This document shows positions 391 through 5,850 of a DNA stretch of 5,850 nt, piece by piece. Below the pieces are notes generated by a model, which ran no database searches, was not told where the DNA came from, and was given only the letters and a program-made list of their open reading frames with translations. Each line of letters begins with the position of its first letter. Position 1 is the first letter of the stretch. The stretch comes from Gemmatimonadota bacterium (GTDB taxonomy: Bacteria; 4572-55; J002). Location of the stretch: positions 1 to 5,850 of the forward strand of contig RFFQ01000198.1 in assembly GCA_003697105.1 (NCBI GenBank), written 5' to 3'. A program made the position numbers and the translations under genes.

Positions 391-729
391 TCAACCAAAA
401 CTCTTGATCGCGTCCTCTTCGTTGGTAAAATTTTCAAAGACGGTAATCAGTTGGGTCACGGTAAGGAGATGTTCAATGCGCTTGGTGGCATTTAACAATT
501 TTAGTTCACCTCCCGCATTTCGCATACTGGTTAAACAGGAGATCAAGCTACCCAACCCACTACTATTGATCCGGGGGACACCTCCCAAGTCAATCAACAC
601 TTTACGTTGTCCTTCTGCGATCAATTCTTTAATTTTATCTTGGAGTTTAACTGCATCTGGACCACCGACCAGCTCGCCTTTGAGTTCCACAACGATGACA
701 CCGTGTGCATAACGGGTATTAATTTTCAT
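391..729 (-). CDS. STAS-domain protein, anti-sigma-factor antagonist (SpoIIAA/RsbV-like)
   Basis: This 112-aa protein is a single STAS domain, the normal length for stand-alone members. The fold pattern is visible: beta strands at the start (VIVVELKGEL, 11-20), a helix near 26-39, the strand KVLIDLGG (43-50), then the signature INSSGLGSLI (54-63), and a late strand-helix ending ITVFENFTNEEDAIKSF. In the family a serine in the DSSG loop is phosphorylated by a partner kinase/anti-sigma factor. Here Ser56 aligns with that site, and the preceding Asp is Asn55, a variant that I recall from other bacterial STAS proteins. The start is supported by AGGAGG (complement of 735-740) five bases upstream. 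The gene lies 35 bp downstream of the PilB-like gene, without a visible promoter of its own, so the two are probably co-transcribed. No kinase or sigma factor gene is present here. The partner-switching role is inferred from the family. Confidence 0.93.
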   Translation of the reverse strand: MKINTRYAHGVIVVELKGELVGGPDAVKLQDKIKELIAEGQRKVLIDLGGVPRINSSGLGSLISCLTSMRNAGGELKLLNATKRIEHLLTVTQLITVFENFTNEEDAIKSFG

Positions 730-764
730 CTTATCCTCCTGAGATGATGAGTAAATGTATCAAG

Positions 765-2447
765 TTAAGAAAACGCTTTGGCAATTTCATCAAGTGTGGT
801 GATACCCCGCGCAAATTTTAGTAAGGCATCTTCTTTTATCGGTCGCATGCCTTCTTTGATGGCTTCCATCCGAATTTCATGCGAAGGTGCGCCTTGGATC
901 ATCATATCGGCAATTCTAGGGCTGACCGGCATGACCTCAAACACGGGTTGTCGCCAGCGATAGCCGGTGTGATAGCAACGGTCACATCCTTTCCCGACAT
1001 AATAGGTTCGTCCGGCTAATTTCTGGGGGTCAATGCCAAACCGGACAAACCGGTCTTCTTCAATCTCAGTTGGTGTTTTGCAATGTTCGCAAATTTTACG
1101 AACAGACGCCTGAGTGACGACACATTTCAAAGTTTCGGCGAGTAATCGGATATCTATTTCTCGATTCATCAATTGTGTAAGTGCGTCTTCTGTTCCGTGC
1201 GAACCCACCAGCCCGTATACCCGGCAACGGGTGGCGAGATGCGTGGCAATGCCCAAAATCGCCGTGTCGGAGAGATCACTAATCCCAATCACATCTAAAT
1301 CTTCATCCTGCAAAAATTGTAATGCCGTTGGTAAACTCAATGCCCCTTTGATATTCACTTCCACTTGATTGACCCCTTCCATATAATACTCAATGGGGTC
1401 TTCAATACTCACCACATTTTGGTGTTCGGTATTTGCGGTGTTGAGAATGGAATAATAGGTGCGCATTTTTTCGGTTTTATGGGGTCCGGCAAACACAATT
1501 AAGCCATAGTGCCCACTAATTGCTTTGGAAAGGTCACTAAACGCTTTCCGTTGCAAACCCAATTGGCTAATATCAAGACTTAAGTCATTCTGATTCCAGA
1601 TTTTAATCAGGATTTTATCACCATACAAGGTAGGGTAAATTTGAGCCATCATGCGTACCGGATGGTCGTTTATGGTAGCCGAAATTTGGCTTATTTTGGG
1701 TTGGCGACGGGCGGCCCGATCAAATTTAAACAGATTTTCCAGTCGGGATTGGATTTCGGTTCGCATTCGGATGGGCGGGCTGGCTTCCTCATGCAAAACA
1801 CCGTCAATGCGAAACCGAATCCGGATTTTGCGCTCAAAGGGTTCAATATGGATAGCACTTGCTCCTTTCAGAATCGCATCTAAAATCACGGAATTGAGGA
1901 GGGTTGCGGCGGGTGGATCATCGGGGGCATGTCCCCCTGCGGACGTATCGGATAAGGGGTCTTGGACAATCACTTCTACGTTCCCACCGGTGGTGACGGG
2001 CAGTTTGCCCAAAGCGTCCGAAGTGGGGTAGTACTGCATCAGGGCTTGGTCGATGGCGGTTTCCGAAGCCACAAGCGTATGAATATCAAAACCGGTACGG
2101 AATCGAATATCATCAATTGCGATCATGTCTGTGGGGTCAGACATCGCTACCGTCAATCCCTTTTTCCCTTCTCGTCCAATGGGTATCACCTTATATTTAT
2201 AAGCCATATCCGAAGAAATCAGATTTAATGTACTCTGATCGATGGAGACGCTCCCGAGGTCAATTCGCGCAATGCCCAATTGGCGGCTGATCCCCGTTAA
2301 CAATTGGTCTTCGGTCAGGTAGTTCATCGCCACCAAATGACTACCTAATTTACCACCATGTTTTTTCTGTGCGGTTAGGGCTTGTTTGAGTTGAGCCTCC
2401 GTGATCAAGCCTTCCGCGAGCAACATTTCGCCCAATCTGCGAGCCAT
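765..2447 (-). CDS. PilB/GspE-family protein with MshEN domain and degenerate ATPase core (probable pseudo-ATPase)
   Basis: The 560-aa protein has the layout of a type IV pilus/type II secretion assembly ATPase. Residues 1-140 form an MshEN (T2SSE_N) domain. It has the paired 24-residue motifs of the cyclic-di-GMP-binding family: R4-L5-G6...G13...L20...L24..Q27, a five-residue spacer, then K33-L34-G35...L49...Q56, with Asn42 where Gly is usual. Residues 180-560 match the GspE core: GASAIHIEPFERKIRIRFRI (195-214, usual ASD reads ASA), a conserved Asp-box VVSIEDPIEY (345-354) and two zinc-type pairs C453-x2-C456 and C488-x2-C491. The catalytic parts are lost. Walker A, normally GPTGSGKTTT, reads GPHKTEKMRT (321-330). 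The Walker B region, normally ending GEIRD, reads DVIGISDL (385-392). The usual STLHTNDA reads LVGSHGTEDA (413-422). Alignment continues in frame on both sides, so this is substitution and not a frameshift. GGAGGA precedes the ATG. A c-di-GMP sensing or structural role is likelier than motor activity. Confidence 0.92.
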   Translation of the reverse strand: MARRLGEMLLAEGLITEAQLKQALTAQKKHGGKLGSHLVAMNYLTEDQLLTGISRQLGIARIDLGSVSIDQSTLNLISSDMAYKYKVIPIGREGKKGLTVAMSDPTDMIAIDDIRFRTGFDIHTLVASETAIDQALMQYYPTSDALGKLPVTTGGNVEVIVQDPLSDTSAGGHAPDDPPAATLLNSVILDAILKGASAIHIEPFERKIRIRFRIDGVLHEEASPPIRMRTEIQSRLENLFKFDRAARRQPKISQISATINDHPVRMMAQIYPTLYGDKILIKIWNQNDLSLDISQLGLQRKAFSDLSKAISGHYGLIVFAGPHKTEKMRTYYSILNTANTEHQNVVSIEDPIEYYMEGVNQVEVNIKGALSLPTALQFLQDEDLDVIGISDLSDTAILGIATHLATRCRVYGLVGSHGTEDALTQLMNREIDIRLLAETLKCVVTQASVRKICEHCKTPTEIEEDRFVRFGIDPQKLAGRTYYVGKGCDRCYHTGYRWRQPVFEVMPVSPRIADMMIQGAPSHEIRMEAIKEGMRPIKEDALLKFARGITTLDEIAKAFS

Positions 2448-2574: not shown

Positions 2575-2603
2575 TTGACAAATTTGACGTCGTCCGGTAG
2601 GAT
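2575..2603 (+). promoter_or_regulatory. Predicted sigma-70 promoter of the small membrane-protein gene
   Basis: A perfect TTGACA (2575-2580) is followed by a 17-bp spacer and TAGGAT (2598-2603), four of six matches to the -10 consensus. The start would fall around 2609-2612, exactly at the left arm of the inverted repeat 2609-2632. The leader to the ATG at 2644 would be about 33 nt. Read-through into the SLOG genes is possible, because no terminator hairpin with a T tract follows the small gene. Confidence 0.7.
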
Positions 2604-2608
2604 CATTT

Positions 2609-2632
2609 AACTATTTTTTATCTGAAATAGTT
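2609..2632. repeat. Perfect inverted repeat at the predicted transcription start (operator or leader hairpin)
   Basis: The arms AACTATTT (2609-2616) and AAATAGTT (2625-2632) are exact reverse complements separated by 8 nt. The repeat begins at the predicted +1 of the promoter at 2575-2603 and ends directly before the ribosome binding site GGGAG (2633-2637). It could be a repressor operator, or a weak AT-rich hairpin in the leader that affects ribosome access. It lacks a GC stem and a following T tract, so it is not an intrinsic terminator. Confidence 0.55.
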
Positions 2633-2643
2633 GGGAGTTTATC

Positions 2644-2796
2644 ATGTTCACAACATTTGCTAAATACATACTGCTGGCAATGGTCATTCTGGTGATTGTG
2701 GGACTTATCGCGAAGACCTTCAAACTGGCACTGGGTTTCGCACTGGGTTGCTTGCTGATCGCCGGAGTACTCTACCTACTCGATAAAATTTTATAA
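2644..2796 (+). CDS. Small two-helix membrane protein, 50 aa
   Basis: An ATG at 2644 preceded by GGGAG (2633-2637) at six bases opens a 50-codon frame ending in TAA at 2794-2796. The product is almost entirely hydrophobic. It has a first membrane helix at about residues 8-23 (YILLAMVILVIVGLIA), a short basic turn AKTFK (23-27), a second helix at about 28-46 with Gly/Ala spacing (LALGFALGCLLIAG) that suits helix packing, and a charged end DKIL. With a consensus promoter and a good ribosome binding site it is very likely real despite its size. It lies 104 bp upstream of the SLOG operon on the same strand. I recognise no family. A role as partner, regulator or toxin-like component of the adjacent SLATT protein is possible but is only inferred from position. 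Confidence 0.8.
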   Translation: MFTTFAKYILLAMVILVIVGLIAKTFKLALGFALGCLLIAGVLYLLDKIL

Positions 2797-2821
2797 CCTG
2801 CTGGTATTTCCCACGAAAGAG

Positions 2822-2851
2822 TTGACGCATCCCTCCTATTTGTGATATACT
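2822..2851 (+). promoter_or_regulatory. Predicted extended -10 promoter of the SLOG/SLATT operon
   Basis: TTGACG (2822-2827, five of six) is followed after 18 bp by TATACT (2846-2851, five of six). The -10 box is preceded by TGA, giving the TGn extension that compensates for a long spacer. The start would be near 2858 with a leader of about 43 nt. The -10 box overlaps the left arm of the inverted repeat at 2849-2873, which suggests that this promoter is repressible. Confidence 0.72.
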
Positions 2852-2873
2852 TATTTTTGCCGGGAAAATAAGT
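2849..2873. repeat. Perfect 9-bp inverted repeat overlapping -10 and +1: candidate operator
   Basis: The arms ACTTATTTT (2849-2857) and AAAATAAGT (2865-2873) are exact reverse complements with a 7-nt spacer (TGCCGGG). The left arm covers the last bases of the -10 box and the whole region up to the predicted start near 2858. The transcript would therefore carry only the right arm, so this is better explained as a DNA site for a dimeric repressor than as an RNA hairpin. The arms resemble those at 2609-2632 (AACTATTT), so one regulator might serve both promoters. No regulator gene is seen in the window. Confidence 0.6.
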
Positions 2874-2900
2874 CGAATATCATCTTAGAAGGTTGTTACT

Positions 2901-3659
2901 ATGATTAAAGTAAAATCTATTTATTTGAATAATCATCCGGCAACGATAATTCAAACAAGTCAGGATGAACCGCCACACCGGATCGTCCAAAAGCTTGATA
3001 TACCATCGCCCCGGGCGGTGCTTGTCCTCAATGGGGGAACAGCTAAACTGGATGAGAACTTGCAGGAACATCTCCGTCGATTGCTCCAAGAGGGTGTTGC
3101 CAAATACGTTGCGGAACACGGTGTTGTAGTGGTCACCGGTGCTACCGATGCCGGCATTTTTTCAATATTTGGTGAGGGATTACACCGTTACAACGTTCAA
3201 ACCCCCTGTATTGGCGTAGCCGTAAAAGCATTGGTCACCTGGAAAGGTCGCCTGCCCCGATGGTTACCCCACCAGTGGCTGGACAACGGGCGCGAACCCT
3301 TAGAACCCCACCATACCCATTTTGTACTGGTGGATGGTAAGAACTGGGGCGACGAAACGGAAATGATGTACCGTCTGGTACAAGAACTCTCCCAAAATTG
3401 CCCCTCATTGGCAATTTTTGCTGGCGGCGGCACCATTACCCTCGGTGAAATGGAACTCAATGTCAGCCAACAACGACAGATGATTTTGATCGAAGGTAGT
3501 GGACGCACCACCGATTCGGTGGTCGAGGAACATTCGGGAATCTCAACGGTAAATCCGCGCTTTACCAACATCGCCAAAAAAGGTCGAATATCGATATTTT
3601 CATTGCAGGATAATCCAGAAAAATTGGAACAGATGATTCATCACCTGCTGTTTTCATAG
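2901..3659 (+). CDS. Stand-alone SLOG domain protein of the prokaryotic TRPM type (LSDAT)
   Basis: The 252-aa protein is one SLOG (Rossmann-like, nucleotide-ligand-binding) domain of the TRPM-related class. The motifs in order are VLVLNGGTAKLDE (40-52), VVTGATDAGI (77-86), PLEPHHTHFVLVD (133-145), WGDET (149-153), FAGGGT (173-178) and LIEGSGRTTD (196-205). They correspond to the NHxHFLLVD, EGG and VxGSGRxxD motifs of the MHR1/2 region of animal TRPM channels, where SLOG domains bind ADP-ribose-type ligands. No membrane segment or signal peptide is visible, so it should be cytosolic. AGAAGG (2887-2892) lies eight bases before the ATG. The next gene, 21 bp downstream, carries a second copy of this domain fused to SLATT modules, so the two arose by duplication or work as a pair. 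The ligand is unknown. The PGGxGT signature of LOG/lysine-decarboxylase-like enzymes is absent, so an enzymatic LOG role is unlikely. Confidence 0.9.
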   Translation: MIKVKSIYLNNHPATIIQTSQDEPPHRIVQKLDIPSPRAVLVLNGGTAKLDENLQEHLRRLLQEGVAKYVAEHGVVVVTGATDAGIFSIFGEGLHRYNVQTPCIGVAVKALVTWKGRLPRWLPHQWLDNGREPLEPHHTHFVLVDGKNWGDETEMMYRLVQELSQNCPSLAIFAGGGTITLGEMELNVSQQRQMILIEGSGRTTDSVVEEHSGISTVNPRFTNIAKKGRISIFSLQDNPEKLEQMIHHLLFS

Positions 3660-3680
3660 TGGGTTAGGAGGTTCACCGGC

Positions 3681-5699
3681 ATGCTTGAAAAATGGAAGGG
3701 GATACTCAACACAGATTTAAAACAGGTAATGGCAAAAAATGATCCAGCAGTGACCCCCGGTGAACTACCAGAGTCCGAAGAGCATTCCAACCCAGAAAAA
3801 GCCAGCCCAGATCATCCCGAGGCAACGATCATTACATTCCCCAACGGCAACCAAGCTCGCTTGACCACCACTCCAATTGGTCGTGATCCGCAGGAAATCC
3901 TAGATGAATTGGGAATTAAGCCCCCGAAAGCGCTCATTTATAGTGTGGGCGGAACCTCTGGGTTAGATGACCGTCTCCACGCTCGGTTACAGCAATTATA
4001 CAGTCGGGCAATCGCCCGCACTGCCGCAGAGGTGGAAGCAATTACCGTCGATGGGGCAACAGAAGCTGGCGTTATCCAACTAATGGGGCAAGGCGTGGCA
4101 GACCGGGGTCGTAAATCAATTTTGCTCGGCGTTGCCCCGATTTCAAAAGCAACCTATCCGGGAGATCCGCATCGCGCTGAAAAAGAAGAGTGTTACCCAC
4201 TCGATCCCAATCACACCCATTTTGTGCTGGTGGAATCCGAAAATAACGATTGGGGCAACGAAACCTCAACAATGTGCGCCTTGTTGGAAGCACTCGGAAG
4301 CAATTCTATCAGTGCCGTGACCATCCTAGCAAATGGGGGTGAAGTCGCTAAAAGTGAAGTGCTTTACAGTGTGCGGCATGGCTGGCCCGTGATCATCATT
4401 GAAGGGAGTGGACGGGCAGCGGATGAAATCCTGAAACTATGGTATGAAAAACCAGACCGCATTGATGACCCCATACTTTCCGAAATTATCGAAGAGGGTA
4501 TTATCCATCCCTACCATATTGATGATCCCATCAATGGTATGGAACGCCTGATCAAACGCCTCTTACAAGAAGACGTTATCCTAAAAACCGCTTGGGAATG
4601 GTTTGCCGTTTATGATAAAAATGCCATCCTAAAACAGACCGAATACAAACGGCGCCAAAAACAAATTTTGCAGTTAGGGGTTATCGGGACGGGATTAGCC
4701 ATCATCAAAAACCTATATGAAACATCGATTCAGGCGGCTTTGGGAAATTTCCTAACAAACCCCATCATTGAGACCCTCTACCTCTCCCTCGATAATATGC
4801 TCTACGTGATTATTCTAGCCGTGCCGATCTTGTTGACGATGCTTTCCGACAAGCAAAACAAGCGAAACGCCGGTATGAAACAACTCTATTTGCGTGCAAG
4901 TGCGGAAATGCTCAAACGGGACATCTACTCCTATCGTGCCAAAGCGGGAGCATACGGGGTAGAAGAACTGGAGGGCACCAGTCCCGAAGCCAAATTACAG
5001 GAAAAATTGGATCACATTAGTACCCAATTAGCGCAATCTGATGTGATGACATCCGCACTAGAGCCACATGAGGGTCCCATCCCCCCACAGTATGGTGCGG
5101 CACCCGGCGATGATGGATTTAGCTACCTGACACAGGAAAAATATGTTCAATTCCGTTTGCAAGACCAACTGGACTATTACAAGAAAAAAACCCTTAAATT
5201 AGAAAAACAAAAGGAGCGATTGCACAACTTAATCCTGATCTTTGGCGGCATCGGAACATTACTAGCCGCGATTGGCTTGCAAATTTGGATTGCCCTAACC
5301 ACTGCTCTGGTCACCGCATTTACAACGATGCTGGAATACGAAAAGGTCGAGGAAAATCTGCAAAAATTCAACCGTGCCGCCATTGAGTTAGCAAATGTCA
5401 AAAGTTGGTGGAACTCACTCTCACCGGAACAACAAGCCCGCCCGAAAAACATTGATCTGCTCATCAACCGGACAGAAGATATTCTGGAAGGCGAATTCCG
5501 CCAGTGGTTCCAACAAATGCAACAAGCGGTTGAAGAACAGGCAGAAGAAACCAGTGAAGCCACCGGTCTGGAACGGGAGAATAAAACCAAACCCATCCTC
5601 GAGTTTTTGGGAACGGAAAATCCCAAAACGGAAGACTCCGCCTCGCCAAAACAGACTGCCAACACCGCCACTACTTCCAAACCAGTACCCCCTGATTGA
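3681..5699 (+). CDS. TRPM-type SLOG sensor fused to two SLATT membrane effector modules, 672 aa
   Basis: After an acidic, proline-rich N-terminal stretch (about 20-48), residues 49-255 form a TRPM-type SLOG domain: LIYSVGGTSGLDD (85-97), VDGATEAGV (123-131), LDPNHTHFVLVES (174-186), WGNET (191-195), ILANGGE (215-221) and IIEGSGRAADE (239-249). Residues about 300-426 look like a SLATT_3 module: KRRQKQ, membrane helices near 329-346 and 372-389, then KRNAGMK and the LKRDIYSYRAKAGAYG motif (411-426). Residues about 480-615 look like SLATT_1: RLQDQLDYYKKKTLKLEKQ (492-510), helices near 514-533 and 535-550, LEYEKVEENLQKFNRAA (551-567) and a final WFQQMQQAV (609-617). The last 50 residues are polar and probably disordered. 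By family knowledge, SLOG senses a nucleotide ligand and SLATT is a predicted pore-forming or membrane-perturbing effector. The four helices place it in the inner membrane with the SLOG domain cytosolic. AGGAGG (3666-3671) lies nine bases before the ATG. Activity in defence or stress is inferred. Confidence 0.92.
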   Translation: MLEKWKGILNTDLKQVMAKNDPAVTPGELPESEEHSNPEKASPDHPEATIITFPNGNQARLTTTPIGRDPQEILDELGIKPPKALIYSVGGTSGLDDRLHARLQQLYSRAIARTAAEVEAITVDGATEAGVIQLMGQGVADRGRKSILLGVAPISKATYPGDPHRAEKEECYPLDPNHTHFVLVESENNDWGNETSTMCALLEALGSNSISAVTILANGGEVAKSEVLYSVRHGWPVIIIEGSGRAADEILKLWYEKPDRIDDPILSEIIEEGIIHPYHIDDPINGMERLIKRLLQEDVILKTAWEWFAVYDKNAILKQTEYKRRQKQILQLGVIGTGLAIIKNLYETSIQAALGNFLTNPIIETLYLSLDNMLYVIILAVPILLTMLSDKQNKRNAGMKQLYLRASAEMLKRDIYSYRAKAGAYGVEELEGTSPEAKLQEKLDHISTQLAQSDVMTSALEPHEGPIPPQYGAAPGDDGFSYLTQEKYVQFRLQDQLDYYKKKTLKLEKQKERLHNLILIFGGIGTLLAAIGLQIWIALTTALVTAFTTMLEYEKVEENLQKFNRAAIELANVKSWWNSLSPEQQARPKNIDLLINRTEDILEGEFRQWFQQMQQAVEEQAEETSEATGLERENKTKPILEFLGTENPKTEDSASPKQTANTATTSKPVPPD

Positions 5700-5740
5700 C
5701 TGACAAAAGCTATTTAACTCATTTATTATCAACAAAAAAG

Positions 5741-5769
5741 TTGCGCTTTGATTTGATTTGGTTTAGATT
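5741..5769 (+). promoter_or_regulatory. Weak candidate promoter for the gene starting at 5812
   Basis: TTGCGC (5741-5746), a 17-bp spacer and TAGATT (5764-5769) have the right geometry for a sigma-70 promoter. The -35 box matches only the TTG and the -10 box four of six positions. The surrounding 5700-5811 spacer is AT-rich with imperfect TTTGA repeats and has no convincing terminator hairpin for the SLATT gene. Read-through from that gene is an alternative source of transcription. Confidence 0.3.
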
Positions 5770-5811
5770 TTTCCATCTCAATTTACTTGACCCCTCATTC
5801 GTGGAGTAGCG

Positions 5812-5850
5812 ATGGAAACATTGACCCTTTACCGAGCCGTTTTAAGAATA
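5812..5850 (+). CDS. N-terminal start of an unidentified protein (3' truncated)
   Basis: An ATG at 5812 with GGAG (5803-5806) five bases upstream opens a frame that runs to the window edge, giving the 13 residues METLTLYRAVLRI. The ribosome binding site and its position after an AT-rich spacer support a real start. The gene is on the same strand as the SLOG/SLATT genes, 112 bp after the SLATT stop, so it might belong to the same transcription unit. Too little is visible to name the family. Confidence 0.55.
   Translation, partial: METLTLYRAVLRI

Follow-up and report, generated by a model that had tools for sequence, protein, structure and literature searches.

A TRPM-type LSDAT sensor fused to tandem SLATT modules lies beside TIR genes in many bacteria and some archaea, suggesting an unrecorded Thoeris-like defence system

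Introduction

Several prokaryotic conflict systems are built around nucleotide signals that act on a membrane effector. In Thoeris, ThsA effectors of the transmembrane (TM)-macro type bind ADP-ribose (ADPR) and cluster their TM helices (PMC11204291). SLOG and SLATT domains were predicted to belong to nucleotide-centred conflict systems, SLATT being the effector that would form pores in response to nucleotides (Burroughs et al., 2015, as cited in PMC7159879 and PMC9503650), and TIR genes with neighbouring two-TM (2TM) SLATT genes have been reported in firmicute phages (PMC9503650). Here we describe a SLOG-SLATT fusion gene on contig RFFQ01000198.1 of a Gemmatimonadota bacterium (assembly GCA_003697105.1). 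The window, meaning the whole stretch of DNA that was analysed, is this one complete contig (C84), which spans 5850 bp in a draft genome of 4.18 Mb, and open reading frames (ORFs) were called by a simple procedure. The gene encodes a protein of 672 amino acids (aa) in which an LSDAT domain, a SLOG domain of the TRPM MHR1/2 type, is followed by two SLATT-type membrane modules.

We propose, at a probability of roughly 0.55, that this protein acts as the membrane effector, gated by a ligand, in a Thoeris-like conflict system that a TIR enzyme triggers and that is probably directed against phages. Infection or stress would activate the TIR enzyme, which would make an ADP-ribose-type signal from NAD+. 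With the LSDAT domain closed on this signal, the tandem SLATT helices could oligomerise or rearrange; the inner membrane would then be permeabilised, and the cell would cease to grow or die. The clustering of ThsA TM helices offers a mechanistic precedent for such a step.

An earlier note on this DNA had read three genes, for a small membrane peptide, a soluble SLOG protein and the SLOG-SLATT protein, as one system of which no experimental description was known. Our literature search, which was confined to open-licence papers and could miss a published description of a TIR and LSDAT-SLATT system, likewise returned no experiment on the arrangement. The general idea is, however, contained in the predictions of Burroughs et al. 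(2015), at least as the citing papers present them, so that the arrangement is less undescribed than the note stated.

The fused protein and its recurrence

All three co-directional ORFs were found at the positions that had been given for them (Table 1), and the profile searches that the earlier note had proposed matched both LSDAT and SLATT families, the lack of which it had named as evidence against its idea. In Pfam, the fused protein matches LSDAT_prok (PF18171) over residues 86-269 (E 3e-43, 147.7 bits against a cut-off of 25.4). The first membrane module matches DUF4231 (E 3e-5) by a margin of 0.3 bits (25.0 against 24.7) and has alignment-averaged hydrophobic peaks at residues 328-346 and 373-391, and the second matches SLATT_1 (E 1.6e-22, 80.3 bits against 26.3), for which the protein is above the NCBIfam cut-off as well. 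The proposed membrane fusion with two modules is thus borne out, but not the naming of SLATT_3, which scored 18.9 bits against 45 in NCBIfam and is absent from the Pfam matches; the first module is therefore best named DUF4231/SLATT-like. The AlphaFold model (predicted local distance difference test, pLDDT, 80.4) places the LSDAT domain at residues ~49-295, followed by the long helical SLATT modules, and its closest solved structures are TRPM proteins. Assignment to SLATT follows from the profiles over cut-off together with the helices of the model; a sequence search of solved structures for SLATT gave a chance match only. Membership of the effector in PADLOC, and in the ThsA types (SIR2-SLOG or TM-macro) in particular, was considered and set aside, since no ThsA or other PADLOC model matches the fused proteins.

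When an alignment served as query, 84,980 species genomes yielded 67 relatives; an earlier genome scan with the single protein as query had found none. Homologous loci were sampled through two short peptide patterns, and many of their flanks are cut. Fused LSDAT-SLATT proteins occur in ~30 loci, with full fusions in at least nine phyla: Pseudomonadota (Thiotrichaceae), Planctomycetota (Brocadia), Chloroflexota, Verrucomicrobiota, Bacteroidota, Myxococcota, Acidobacteriota, Nitrososphaerota and the phylum of the window. Two further copies are carried by plasmids (Hymenobacter and Chlorohelix). The distribution is patchy, with the gene in 12 of 195 Myxococcota genomes and in one of 398 from the archaeal phylum, and with two full-length fusions in 400 Chloroflexota. 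Both examined genomes of the window's phylum have the gene, the copy in the sister genome being cut off by a contig end. The tree groups sequences by phylum and joins the window protein to its sister at full support, which points to patchiness with loss or old transfer and not to rampant recent transfer. A phage or virus origin was rejected, as viral contigs and phage records held no fusion.

Variants of the architecture were also seen. A long insertion splits the LSDAT domain in two Chloroflexota fusions (L033 and L034). In cyanobacteria, LSDAT and DUF4231 are encoded by separate neighbouring genes in 25 of 31 loci; two cyanobacterial loci have tandem SLATT modules fused to a TPR-S sensor beside a separate LSDAT gene (L073:199-3360 and L076:3574-6777), the latter with an adjoining TIR/WD40 gene. 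Fused genes of Bacteroidota adjoin glycosyl hydrolase 108, muramidase-like or peptidoglycan-binding genes, perhaps lysins of phage type (L013:5261-8821 and L021:9028-9612).

TIR genes beside the fused gene

If the LSDAT domain is a receptor, what makes its ligand? Clustering of neighbouring genes brought up TIR proteins, which were then confirmed with Pfam, and a TIR enzyme is the likely signal producer, a component that the earlier note had missed. Among 22 loci, which are partly kin (two from Thiotrichaceae and two from Nitrososphaerota are close relatives, although TIR architectures still differ between lineages), 11 have a TIR gene within ~5 kb of the fused gene (9 by a strict count), against 0.32 expected from per-genome TIR counts (P ~3e-12, strict). 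Eight (6 strict) have it on the same strand and at most 1 kb downstream, where 0.016 would be expected. The association was replicated on fresh Myxococcota loci that had no part in forming the idea: a TIR gene is directly adjacent in seven of nine, one of which (L134) has a partial LSDAT only, and the chance of this is ~1e-17, or 1e-12 with three close relatives merged, in a sample that shares ancestry. Five of these TIR genes lie downstream at ~12-22 bp, one upstream at 28 bp, and one is divergent. The catalytic Glu position is kept in the full-length TIRs that align, and some partner TIRs match ThsB or CBASS TIR profiles. This pairing, far above chance, together with the recurrence of the fusion across phyla, favours the proposal of the earlier note that ligand sensing is coupled to a membrane effector.

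In four Chloroflexota loci, tandem SLATT modules without LSDAT directly follow a TIR gene. These belong to an operon that is found in separate genomes (L165, L167, L168 and L170, with a cut copy in L164) and encodes a peptidase-like protein of ~460 aa, a TIR protein of ~1000 aa, the tandem SLATT protein of 430-460 aa and a protein of ~775 aa.

For the window, a TIR partner would be expected from the adjacency observed in its homologues. At least four TIR proteins are encoded at other places in its genome. Three of these, on contigs C57, C11 and C62, carry three to five TIR domains in a row and resemble the TIR proteins whose genes adjoin the fusion in Thioploca and Halobeggiatoa; one, complete in sequence, has three TIR domains and TM helices.

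The sensor domain and the second LSDAT gene

The window has a second LSDAT protein of 252 aa, which matches LSDAT_prok (E 8e-48, 162.7 bits against 25.4) and gives an AlphaFold model with a pLDDT of 92.6. Its top solved matches are nearly all TRPM channels (query TM-score ~0.67-0.82, highest with TRPM4 MHR1/2). With two LSDAT_prok matches and models that resemble TRPM MHR1/2, the TRPM-type SLOG domains first recognised in the earlier note hold. A eukaryotic stand-alone relative is also found in a ciliary-tip central-pair protein with a single LSDAT-like fold (PDB 9nw3_6A, query TM-score 0.76). Residues Tyr295, Arg302 and Arg358 of TRPM2 contact ADPR (PMC6759353; mutants in PMC6914804). A phmmer alignment with zebrafish TRPM2 (E 2e-7) sets Tyr271/295 opposite W149 and Arg334/358 opposite R202 of the stand-alone protein. 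In the 34 aligned LSDAT sequences, the adenine-stacking Tyr295 position is W or F in all, and the phosphate-binding Arg358 position is R in 30. Position 79 is D in 33 of the 34; the stand-alone protein of the window has T, like zebrafish TRPM2. Judged by predicted structure and alignment, the LSDAT domain is a homologue of the MHR1/2 cleft with which TRPM2 binds ADPR.

The SLOG superfamily also includes N-glycosidases (LOG), and LSDAT domains could instead be LOG-type enzymes that make or destroy the signal, with SLATT as a mere membrane anchor. The LOG motif is PGGxGTxxE, and in the LSDAT alignment an acidic residue is likewise conserved shortly past the invariant GG; a soluble LSDAT beside a membrane-bound one would also suit a producer and consumer pair. 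The GT of the motif is not kept, however, the closest solved relative (TRPM MHR1/2) is a binding and non-catalytic domain, and a TIR partner already supplies an enzyme in many homologous loci. We regard this account as very unlikely.

In the window, 21 bp separate the stand-alone LSDAT gene from the fused gene, with a strong Shine-Dalgarno sequence (GGAGG) ahead of the second start, which makes the two an operon-like pair. Under the proposed receptor mechanism, the soluble protein would most likely bind the same ligand and tune the response as a buffer, a co-sensor or a ligand-processing enzyme. This second gene seems, from the loci compared, to be peculiar to the window: an intact stand-alone LSDAT gene adjoins none of the other fused loci, the sister genome has none, and the nearest analogue is an LSDAT-SLATT-LSDAT arrangement in Scytolyngbya (L058). 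Neither a conserved trio nor a conserved pairing of stand-alone LSDAT and fused gene was therefore retained. A toxin-antitoxin-like module, in which the stand-alone LSDAT is a sponge or inhibitor that silences the fused toxin and no TIR is needed, would agree with the operon order (small soluble gene first, then the short gap), with the capacity of homologous domains to make inactive heterodimers, and with the Scytolyngbya arrangement; it is nevertheless very improbable given that the pairing is not seen in other fused loci, where the fused protein usually stands without a stand-alone LSDAT.

The 50-aa two-helix peptide, whose plausible ORF lies 104 bp upstream of the stand-alone LSDAT gene, had been counted as a component in the earlier note. 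It is strongly hydrophobic along its whole length. It has no match in Pfam, NCBIfam or PADLOC, no relative by tblastn in 70-odd loci, and none in the sister genome (the one other genome of the phylum examined), and a separate promoter-like site (TTGACA-17-TAGGAT) precedes it. On these grounds the peptide is left out of the system, and the three-part neighbourhood, which is not repeated elsewhere, falls with it. That the trio forms one complex with the peptide as pore partner would fit the co-directional ORFs, the good start context and the hydrophobicity, yet it is barely credible against the same lack of relatives and family and the separate promoter-like site. Such sites are merely suggestive, because 11 were found in the window against 5.0 +/- 2.4 in shuffled sequence.

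The contig ends at 5850, 151 bp 3' of the fused gene and inside a repeat: the last ~104-130 bases (5721-5850) are found again where two other contigs, C104 and C52, end. The first 210 bases (1-210) recur at several other contigs. These recurrences indicate assembly breaks at repeats, and the locus is thus bracketed by multi-copy sequence on both sides.

Table 1. Features of the window and TIR genes found near fused genes in homologous loci.
Feature	Position	Strand	Evidence or remark
STAS-domain protein and MshEN-T2SSE ATPase	391-2447	-	Opposite direction to LSDAT pair, apparently unrelated
50-aa hydrophobic peptide ORF	2644..2796	+	No family, no relative; membership of the system not supported
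Promoter-like site directly ahead of LSDAT pair	2822..2851	+	TTGACG-18-TATACT, TG before -10
Stand-alone LSDAT (TRPM MHR1/2-type SLOG), 252 aa; may be a second sensor, a ligand sponge or an enzyme that processes the ligand	2901..3659	+	LSDAT_prok, AlphaFold, TRPM2 alignment
Fused LSDAT-DUF4231/SLATT-SLATT_1 protein, 672 aa; proposed ligand-gated membrane effector	3681..5699	+	Pfam, NCBIfam SLATT_1, AlphaFold model, homologue alignments, tree
LSDAT domain of fused protein	3936..4487	+	Profile match, 151 bits
First membrane module (DUF4231/SLATT-like), residues 313-426	4617..4958	+	DUF4231; hydrophobic peaks
Second membrane module (SLATT_1), residues 488-609	5142..5507	+	SLATT_1; hydrophobic peak 527-545
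CAP12/PCTIR (L023)	4-bp overlap with fused gene, downstream	same strand	Pfam
TIR x3-WD40 (L024)	10 bp downstream of fused gene	same strand	Pfam
TIR-4TM (L041, Nitrososphaerales archaeon)	74 bp downstream of fused gene	same strand	Pfam
TIR-nSTAND-pentapeptide (L025, Nitrosocosmicus archaeon)	97 bp downstream of fused gene	same strand	Pfam
TIR x5-WD40 (L037)	551 bp downstream of fused gene	same strand	Pfam
SIR2-TIR (L021)	849 bp downstream of fused gene	same strand	Pfam
Sub-threshold TIR (L034)	85 bp from fused gene		
74-aa TIR ending in hydrophobic helix, remnant or micro-TIR	L022:7938-8162, 4-bp overlap with fused gene		
TIR (L014, L020, L028, L030, L038)	~0.8-3.3 kb from fused gene		

Defence or physiology

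Several observations weigh against a TIR-triggered effector that responds to ADPR. No TIR gene is present in the window, nor in the flank upstream of the fused gene in the sister genome (L006/L026), and both contigs stop directly behind the gene. Roughly half of the loci with a fusion are without a nearby TIR and only one of the 31 cyanobacterial split loci has one, so that another trigger would exist for some. The position of the ribose-binding Arg302 of TRPM2 is never R among the 34 aligned sequences, and the Arg358 position is replaced in several fused homologues, including archaeal ones that adjoin TIR; the ligand may thus differ between clades and may not be ADPR. TIR and SLATT genes could also have become neighbours through defence islands, with no direct link between them, but gaps of -4 to 22 bp between TIR and fused genes argue against mere co-location.

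These proteins could alternatively be stress or physiology sensors, ADPR- or nucleotide-gated channels that serve the cell's own NAD metabolism and not phage defence, the TIR pairing then reflecting general NAD-signal metabolism. The cyanobacterial LSDAT and DUF4231 pair, widespread in Nostoc near housekeeping-type genes and almost free of TIR, speaks for this, as do the stress-type role of animal TRPM2, the grouping of the tree by phylum with no wild transfer, and the absence of the fusion from phages and viral contigs. The patchy presence, the plasmid copies and the resemblance of partner TIRs to ThsB and CBASS effectors are harder to reconcile with it, and we consider it unlikely, though deserving of attention.

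The occurrence of the fused protein beside a TIR enzyme in many unrelated bacteria and some archaea suggests an unrecorded Thoeris-like defence system. More tentatively, it is possible, if short of probable, that bacteria and archaea share a distinct class of Thoeris-like immunity. Its TIR enzymes would act on a receptor of TRPM2 type (MHR1/2) that is joined to a tandem SLATT pore, and this would represent a prokaryotic counterpart, and conceivably the evolutionary source, of ADPR-gated TRPM channels; the candidate phylum of the window would then hold a variant with a second soluble receptor, acting as buffer or co-receptor. The finding joins three subjects that have so far been handled separately, namely the TIR enzymes of NAD signalling, the domain by which animal TRPM channels sense ADPR, and SLATT membrane effectors. 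Specific genes, e.g., the Myxococcota pairs of TIR-TM and LSDAT-SLATT, make the idea directly testable.

Comparison with known systems

Thoeris (ThsB TIR with ThsA, especially its TM-macro variant) is similar in that a TIR gene adjoins a membrane protein with an ADPR-type sensor, and in Thoeris the TIR product triggers the effector (PMC11204291). The sensor here is, however, a TRPM-type LSDAT and not a macro domain or the ThsA SLOG, the effector part is tandem SLATT, and the TIR neighbour is seen in homologues but not in the window. The predicted SLOG/SLATT conflict systems, compared through the papers that cite them, share the domain families of the window pair but seem to differ in its second LSDAT gene. 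The cyanobacterial LSDAT and DUF4231 pair (L008 and L048-L075) has the same sensor and the same kind of 2TM module, but in two separate genes, with a single DUF4231 module and, apart from the one exception, no TIR neighbour. TRPM2, including chanzyme TRPM2, shares the MHR1/2 fold and sequence, with the adenine-stacking aromatic and phosphate Arg positions kept; the fused protein lacks the TRP channel, MHR3/4 and NUDT9-H, uses SLATT as its membrane part and does not keep the ribose-binding Arg302. Should a TIR product indeed open the membrane effector through an MHR1/2-type receptor, the gating logic of TRPM2, from NAD metabolite to membrane current, would exist in bacterial and archaeal immunity.

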